This document shows positions 19,195 through 20,409 of a DNA stretch of 54,748 bases, in pieces. Location of the stretch: contig LBYD01000005.1 in assembly GCA_000995965.1 (NCBI GenBank), positions 1 to 54,748 of the forward strand, in the 5' to 3' direction. The notes beneath the pieces were generated by a model. The model made no database searches. It saw only the letters and a program-made list of their open reading frames with translations, and was not told where the DNA came from. Position numbers and translations under genes: made by a program. Numbering within the stretch: position 1 is the stretch's first letter; each line of letters opens with the position of its first letter. The DNA comes from Candidatus Moranbacteria bacterium GW2011_GWC2_40_12. GTDB lineage: Bacteria; Patescibacteriota; Minisyncoccia; Moranbacterales; UBA11712.

Positions 19195-20409
19195 TTAGTT
19201 TCTATTTTGCAATATTTTCATCAGATCCAGATAAAATTTCAGATTATGGATTGTCGCGAGCCGCCCGGCCAGCGGTTCTCCGACGGAAAAAAGATGCCGC
19301 AGATACGCCCGAGAATAATTTCGGCAGGTATGGCATTTGCAAATCATGTCAACCGGGGAAAAATCTTTTTTGAATTTCTGGTTGGTAATGTTGATAGTCC
19401 GATAAAATCTTCTGACAAGAGCCCGACTCTTGTCATATTTTTTCGACCAGATAAACAGCGAACCGTGCCGCGCGTTTCGGGTCGGGATGACGCAATCAAA
19501 CATATCGATTCCCAAACGCGCGGCAAAGACTATTTCTTCCGGCTTTCCCAGCCCCATAAGATAGCGCGGCTTCTCTTTTGGAAGCATCGGCAAAATCCAC
19601 TCCAAAATATTTTTCATTTTTTCCCTCGGCTCCCCGACTGCTACTCCGCCAACAGCGTAGCCATCAAAACCAAGTTTCAATAATTGCCTGGCTGATTCTT
19701 GGCGCAAATCTTTATATACCGAACCTTGGACAATTCCGAATAGTAATGGTCTAAAGCTTGGCTTTGAGGAATTCCGGGAGCTGCGCTCCCGGAAGGAAAA
19801 AGCCGAGCTTTTATGAAAATTTTTGTCAAAATATTTTTTACAACGCTCCGCCCACCTCGTCGTCCGTTCCAGCGACATACGCGCATATTCCCGGCTGCAC
19901 GGATAGGGCGGGCATTCGTCAAGAACCATTATAACGTCGCTTCCAAGCGCGAGTTGGATGTCAATTGATTTCTCCGGCGTCATAAAATATTTTTTCCCGT
20001 CCAGCGGATCCCGAAACTCGACGCCTTTTTCAGAAATTTTTACTCCATTCAACGGGGATGCAGACCGCTTGCCGCCAACGCCCGCAGATTTGGAAGGGCG
20101 AACCCCTTTTTTATTTGAAAGAGAAAAAACCTGATAACCTCCCGAATCTGTCAGTATGGGCCTGTCCCAATTCATGAGCCGGTGCAATCCACCCGCTTTT
20201 TTGACGATTTTTTCTCCCGGCCGGAGCCAAAGATGATAAGTATTGCCCAAAATAATTTCCGCACCAAGATCCCGAAGTTCTTCCGGACTCAAATTCTTCA
20301 CCGCTCCTTTCGTGGCAATCGGCAAAAAAAACGGGGTTTTCACCGTTCCATGCATCAAATGAAGTTTTCTCCTCCGAGCTGATCGCTCCTTTTTGAAAAC
20401 ATCCGGCAC
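19195..20409 (-). CDS. tgt: tRNA-guanine transglycosylase
   Basis: [56 protein letters not shown] zinc site; three lineage insertions. Confidence 0.95.
19412..19435. repeat. palindromic element family 3, copy in tgt
   Basis: CTGACAAGAGCCCGACTCTTGTCA. Confidence 0.7.
19753..19812. repeat. palindromic element family 1, copy in tgt
   Basis: AAAGCTTGGCTTTGAGGAATTCCGGGAGCTGCGCTCCCGGAAGGAAAAAGCCGAGCTTTT. Confidence 0.9.

Follow-up and report, generated by a model that had tools for sequence, protein, structure and literature searches.

A 59-nt palindrome family, mostly in-frame within genes of one Candidatus Moranbacteria family, that resembles REPINs and Rickettsia palindromic elements

A 59-nt two-stem palindrome, present twice in the 54,748-nt stretch of DNA analysed here (the window), belongs to a family of at least 119 copies (after duplicate removal) spread through one family of Candidatus Moranbacteria, with the majority of copies in genes. 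The palindrome family, the conservation of its fold, its in-frame placement, empty sites, and transposase-flanking palindromes with arms in common with it were observed directly. We interpret it as a REPIN-like element that acts like the Rickettsia palindromic elements (RPEs) and is probably dispersed, as folded single-stranded DNA, by RAYT-like enzymes.

The element in the window and its relatives

The window corresponds to contig C5 in a genome of 1.14 Mb and 10 contigs (G000); the genomes of relatives are labelled G001–G007, and all are drafts. The two copies lie in the genes tgt and metG. The original prediction placed the tgt copy at 19753–19812; a palindrome is indeed found there, with the element proper ending at 19811. 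Re-reading of both copies confirmed an identical 21-nt left flank (AAAGCTTGGCTTTGAGGAATT) and inner stems that differ by compensatory changes (TTCCGGGAGC/GCTCCCGGAA in tgt versus TTGCGAGAGC/GCTCTCGCAA in metG), each differing position being altered on both arms. The 19-residue peptides encoded by the two copies are alike, as had also been proposed, since tgt and metG read the element in the same orientation and frame. The features concerned are as follows.

19195–20409, minus strand: host gene tgt, queuine tRNA-ribosyltransferase (TIGR00430), 404 aa including the in-frame insert
19753–19811, plus strand (tgt on minus): element copy in tgt, 59 nt, canonical strand AAAGCTTGGCTTT GAGGAA TTCCGGGAGC TGC GCTCCCGGAA GGAA AAAGCCGAGCTTT
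19753–19765, plus strand: left outer arm, AAAGC-TTG-GCTTT, a self-palindrome and also the inverted partner of the right arm
19766–19771, plus strand: asymmetric linker GAGGAA, conserved
19772–19794, plus strand: inner hairpin of 10 bp with a 3-nt loop, the variable, covarying portion of the element
19795–19798, plus strand: right linker GGAA (GGGA in other copies)
19799–19811, plus strand: right outer arm, AAAGC-CGA-GCTTT
3319–4806, minus strand: host gene metG, methionyl-tRNA synthetase (TIGR00398), 495 aa including the in-frame insert
3994–4052, plus strand: element copy in metG, net +20 codons relative to relatives without the insert

A single-sequence AlphaFold model of the tgt product (pLDDT 37.8) was set aside.

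BLASTN with a 76-nt query yielded 19 matches in the element's own 1.14 Mb genome and hit six further genomes of its family (G001–G006), with none in 49 same-order genomes outside the family; G007, which lies inside it, was also negative at that sensitivity. A covariance model was then built from 35 copies and searched in the family genomes, where it detected copies in all eight, G007 included. Per-genome counts, which are lower bounds, were at least 33, 11, 21, 20, 2, 12, 18, and 2 for G000 to G007, respectively; the recurrence within G000 (19 BLASTN matches, 33 copies by the model) is far beyond chance. Those relatives with the element that bear a name are Candidatus Moranbacteria. Matches to a 20-nt pattern scan outside Moranbacteria were chance-like, the rest of the element being absent by model search, with L087 as the sole record not named Moranbacteria whose pattern match the model search did not dismiss.

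On its canonical strand the element consists of AAAGCTTGGCTTT, GAGGAA, an inner hairpin of ~23 nt, GGGA or GGAA, and AAAGCCGAGCTTT. Its length is exactly 59 nt in 71 of the 119 copies, followed by 56 (n = 16), 60 (n = 11), 57 (n = 8), 53 nt (n = 4), and further sizes. Outer arms occur as paired types: AAAGCTTGGCTTT/AAAGCCGAGCTTT (n = 37), AAGGTTCGACCTT/AAGGTCGAACCTT (n = 14), and AAAGCTAAGCTTT/AAAGCTTAGCTTT (n = 12).

Fold, reading frames and occupied sites

The original prediction held that the fold, as DNA or RNA, is what is maintained; covariation, together with the use of both orientations and all six reading frames, supports this. In an alignment of 113 copies, which was fitted to the model, 21 of 23 pairs changed on both sides and 93.6% of cells pair, giving a covariation score of 0.486 compared with 0.177 for shuffled alignments (0/500) and 0.076–0.158 for slid registers. 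A 35-copy alignment that was not fitted to the model showed both-side changes in 15 of 23 pairs (score 0.305, versus 0.104 shuffled). Further copies lacking covariation, an outcome named beforehand as counting against the fold, did not emerge. The fold is the conserved property; the peptide is not. As in REPINs, the outer arms are inverted palindromic units: between the two arms 97.6% of cells pair, and each arm is also self-complementary, in 97.5% and 95.3% of cells. An alternative fold of three hairpins, with each arm folding on itself, is about equally supported (score 0.475), and the arms therefore satisfy two pairings simultaneously.

Mispairs on the canonical strand are skewed towards G.T over A.C (48 versus 19, p = 0.0005). 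The same excess is seen in genic copies oriented opposite to their gene (20 versus 5, p = 0.004, plus 30 central T.G pairs), so that the mismatched form is the one present in the mRNA of those genes. The skew speaks for selection on the element as single-stranded DNA rather than on mRNA structure, with the qualification that the copies are related and that shared ancestry could contribute partly. The fold appears to belong to a mobile element at the DNA level, and not to serve tgt or metG. Recurrent tandem G.A mispairs in a CGAG/CGAG setting, a stable motif in both DNA and RNA, were seen in the inner stems of L014, L020, L025, L026, and L031.

Placement was assessed by counting a copy as in-frame and genic when it lay in an ORF of ≥140 aa with ≥15 codons on each side of the insert; 78 of 119 copies qualified. 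This shows tolerance and not targeting, because a random 60-nt insertion in a mostly coding genome would frequently be in-frame as well. Frame usage among the 78 is non-uniform (24, 21, and 4 copies in the three frames of the opposite strand, 18, 8, and 3 on the same strand; p = 6e − 6), with 49 copies opposite to the gene; one of the rare frames has a TGA in the consensus and another codes for a hydrophobic peptide. A conserved peptide as the maintained feature was rejected, since all frames occur. Nor did random frame usage with frequent gene disruption emerge, the outcome named beforehand as counting against maintenance of the fold: none was found among the non-genic copies, for which comparison loci were limited.

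On average, 4.4 of six frames are open in genic copies, 3.4 in non-genic copies, and 2.4 in shuffles. In line with frame neutrality, core length equals 2 modulo 3 in 64/78 genic copies (mostly of 59 nt), the non-genic figure being 30/41; among copies other than 59 nt, the figures are 17/31 (p = 0.02) and 6/17 (p = 1.0). Beyond the dominant 59-nt class, locking of length to multiples of three is therefore modest and seen only in genes.

Host genes, identified by family models, are mostly housekeeping. At least 11 act on tRNA (tgt, metG, argS, leuS, miaB, cca, tsaD, tsaE, mnmA, trmD, and elp3) and others on DNA (ligA, uvrA, pcrA/uvrD, xseA, and tatD); lepA and murB are also hosts. Conserved enzymes thus tolerate many 20-residue inserts at recurrent sites.

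Orthologues without the insert were found for metG (in G003, G004, G005, and G007), cca, leuS, tatD, and ligA. In cca, G002 has an insert at site 2 that G000 lacks, the difference being exactly +20 codons. At site 1 the insert is present in G000 and missing from G003 and G006, and the G002 gene also has one copy nested within an older one. Equivalent sites of tgt, argS, a glycosyltransferase gene, and pcrA carry opposite-orientation copies in different species; for tgt these are G000 and G003, and relatives have other inserts of low complexity there. In G003, the sites in argS and ligA hold palindromes resembling those that flank other Y1 transposase genes. Such sites are permissive and are hit repeatedly by several palindrome families. 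A different in-frame insert, 10 residues long and of the AFAKASA(G/D)K type, lies in metG of G006 and G001 (L202, L203), a few codons from the window's site.

Y1 transposases and related palindromic systems

Our transposase survey covered Y1 genes. The genome of the window has six, each with its own palindrome on both sides, and their proteins share an invariant HxH (H90, H92) and tyrosine (Y117), the HUH/single-tyrosine arrangement of RAYTs. Scores against REP_Tyr_transpos (NF047646) are about 21–30 bits (21.2–29.5) against a cut-off of 80, and comparison of a Y1 protein with the PDB found no relative. Y1 genes are present in 7/8 family genomes, the others having 2–7 each and the draft genome G007 none. 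The fewest element copies are in G007 and in G004; the two Y1 genes of G004 belong to another type, which scores high.

Of the 39 palindromes that flank Y1 genes, five include one of the family's 13-nt arms exactly, compared with a mean of 0.018 and a maximum of 1 in shuffles (n = 1000). These matches stem from three Y1 loci (L220, L237, and L242), mostly in genomes other than those of the matching elements, and no full 59-nt copies were found as a RAYT's own flanks. In one contig of G006 (C12, L173/L222), two Y1 genes alternate with a truncated, element-bearing ligA copy and an element-free second ligA ORF, an arrangement that suggests duplication around transposases. Two further features of the window match Y1 flanks elsewhere.

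19413–19435, plus strand: second palindrome inside tgt, TGACAAGAGCCCGACTCTTGTCA, 23 nt identical to a Y1-flanking palindrome in a same-genus genome (G001, L221)
5161–5208, plus strand: two tandem palindromes of the AAGATCCGATCTT type, in-frame in ORF 4803–5519, with a core matching Y1 flanks in G003 (L242)

Most relatives have differing inserts in the Tgt stretch at 19413–19435, and a two-mismatch copy of this palindrome lies at 18315–18337, near the start of ORF 16969–18306. By eye, ORF 4803–5519 is rsmI-like. The palindrome TCCTAAGATCCGATCTTAGGA, of the L242 flank type, occurs twice in tandem at 5161–5208 (the second copy 80% alike) and once at 47934–47958, adjoining ORF 46061–47932.

REPs are generally considered to lie mainly outside genes. 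The inverted REPs on either side of a RAYT coevolve with it (Nunvar 2010, PMC2817692), a REPIN is an inverted REP doublet forming a hairpin (Bertels and Rainey 2011, PMC3116915), and GTAG is crucial for the cleavage of single-stranded REPs by TnpA-REP of E. coli (PMC8266576). The Moranbacteria family resembles the REPIN/RAYT system in its two short inverted palindromes forming a long hairpin, in its dispersed non-autonomous copies, and in the accompanying palindrome-flanked Y1/HUH genes. It differs in having a fixed-length covarying hairpin as spacer and divergent associated transposases. In addition, the GTAG tag of REPINs is not conserved in the element alignment, where the conserved linker is GAGGAA, and 66% of copies are in-frame in ORFs, whereas REPINs are extragenic; on these two grounds we do not file the family as a REPIN member.

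REPs within ORFs, including those of repair genes, and the Rickettsia RPEs have been described previously (Di Nocera 2013, PMC3733652; PMC10969869). The likeness to RPEs, compared by description (PMC10969869, PMC3733652), lies in palindromes placed in-frame in unrelated, often essential genes. RPEs, however, are ~150 bp long (PMC10969869), as against ~59 nt here, and belong to a different phylum, and the Moranbacteria genomes have candidate transposases with partly matching palindromes. GTAG/CGTC REPs likewise can occupy ORFs, among them uvrA and genes for UvrD/Rep-type helicases, but are mostly intergenic (PMC3733652), whereas the present family is mostly intragenic and shows neither tag. PARCELs (PMC2996958) are also palindromic coding repeats that spread; they encode 25-residue units in tandem, within ORFs whose function is unknown, unlike the mostly single inserts in housekeeping genes seen here. 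Intragenic REPs themselves are thus already known, and the 59-nt family is a new lineage with the majority of its copies in genes.

Origin of the element and further repeats in the window

On the reading we prefer, the element would be a miniature mobile palindrome of REPIN architecture, with a hairpin spacer between two short, inverted arms that are each palindromic, and it has presumably dispersed on repeated occasions across the compact genomes of a single Moranbacteria family. Its folded single strand would most likely be recognised and recombined by the RAYT-like HUH/Y1 transposases of the same genomes. Insertions in coding sequence would be tolerated because the usual net length is ~60 nt and most reading frames are open; they are probably not useful to the host. 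We suggest more tentatively that coding sequence may even be an adapted niche for an element moved by resident RAYTs, as a length near 60 nt, length variants in steps of three, open frames, and frame-neutral insertions in a gene-dense genome might indicate.

The covariation could also be mutational, if template switching during replication (quasi-palindrome correction) copies one arm from the other. The inner stem is the part that changes most and yet is near-perfectly paired, and it has diverged at sites common to species, such as elp3 in G000 and G002, as such a process would predict. Fixed asymmetries nevertheless persist, namely the central T.G in 66/111 copies, the GAGGAA/GGGA internal loop, and the tandem G.A mispairs. 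Outer-arm variants, moreover, involve coordinated changes at four positions at once, there being two arms that are each also self-complementary, and the variants reappear as complete arm types, which agrees better with subfamilies than with local correction. We therefore consider it unlikely that template switching accounts for the pattern, though templated correction could add to covariation without selection. The 13-nt arms might instead be plain terminal inverted repeats of a MITE, served by the unrelated transposase of an ordinary insertion sequence. Inverted termini, small size, the lack of coding capacity of its own, and a 3′-flanking base that is G in 76% of copies and C in 0%, implying some target or boundary preference, agree with this. 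We judge it improbable given that the arms are themselves palindromic, like REPs, and match Y1-flanking palindromes, and that no obvious target-site duplication could be recognised at the sites inspected.

An element whose fold acts in mRNA or another transcript would explain the strong, RNA-style covariation. It is very improbable, however, when 49/78 genic copies run opposite to the gene, so that the mRNA has A.C mismatches in place of the canonical-strand G.T, and when no Rfam family was matched at gathering score (the best match, an unrelated snoRNA model, reached 23.7 bits versus 50). Hardly any weight falls on the proposal that the extra peptide improves the host enzymes and is selected as protein: inserts do persist in essential enzymes, recur at equivalent sites, and strongly favour some frames, but the copies use all six frames in both orientations, the peptides encoded at equivalent sites are not the same, and insert-free orthologues exist.

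We know of no mover for the in-frame palindromes of Rickettsia genes. Here, an RPE-like, mostly intragenic element co-occurs, in reduced Patescibacteria genomes, with RAYT-like HUH transposases whose flanking palindromes have arms in common with it, and this co-occurrence makes the mover question biochemically testable. If dispersal by resident RAYTs is true, these would be the missing enzyme for RPE-like spread. Our search of the open-access literature found no report of such an element in Patescibacteria.

The window contains other repeats. Three copies of the palindrome TTCACTACAACTAGTTGTAGTGAAA lie near gene ends (11357–11381, 11808–11832, and 29530–29554) and are possibly another palindrome family or terminators. 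A 39-nt repeat (CCCAATCCAAAGTTCCAAGTTTGTCAGCTAGG...) occurs at 38907–38945, 40554–40592, and 41624–41662, between ORFs of unknown function.
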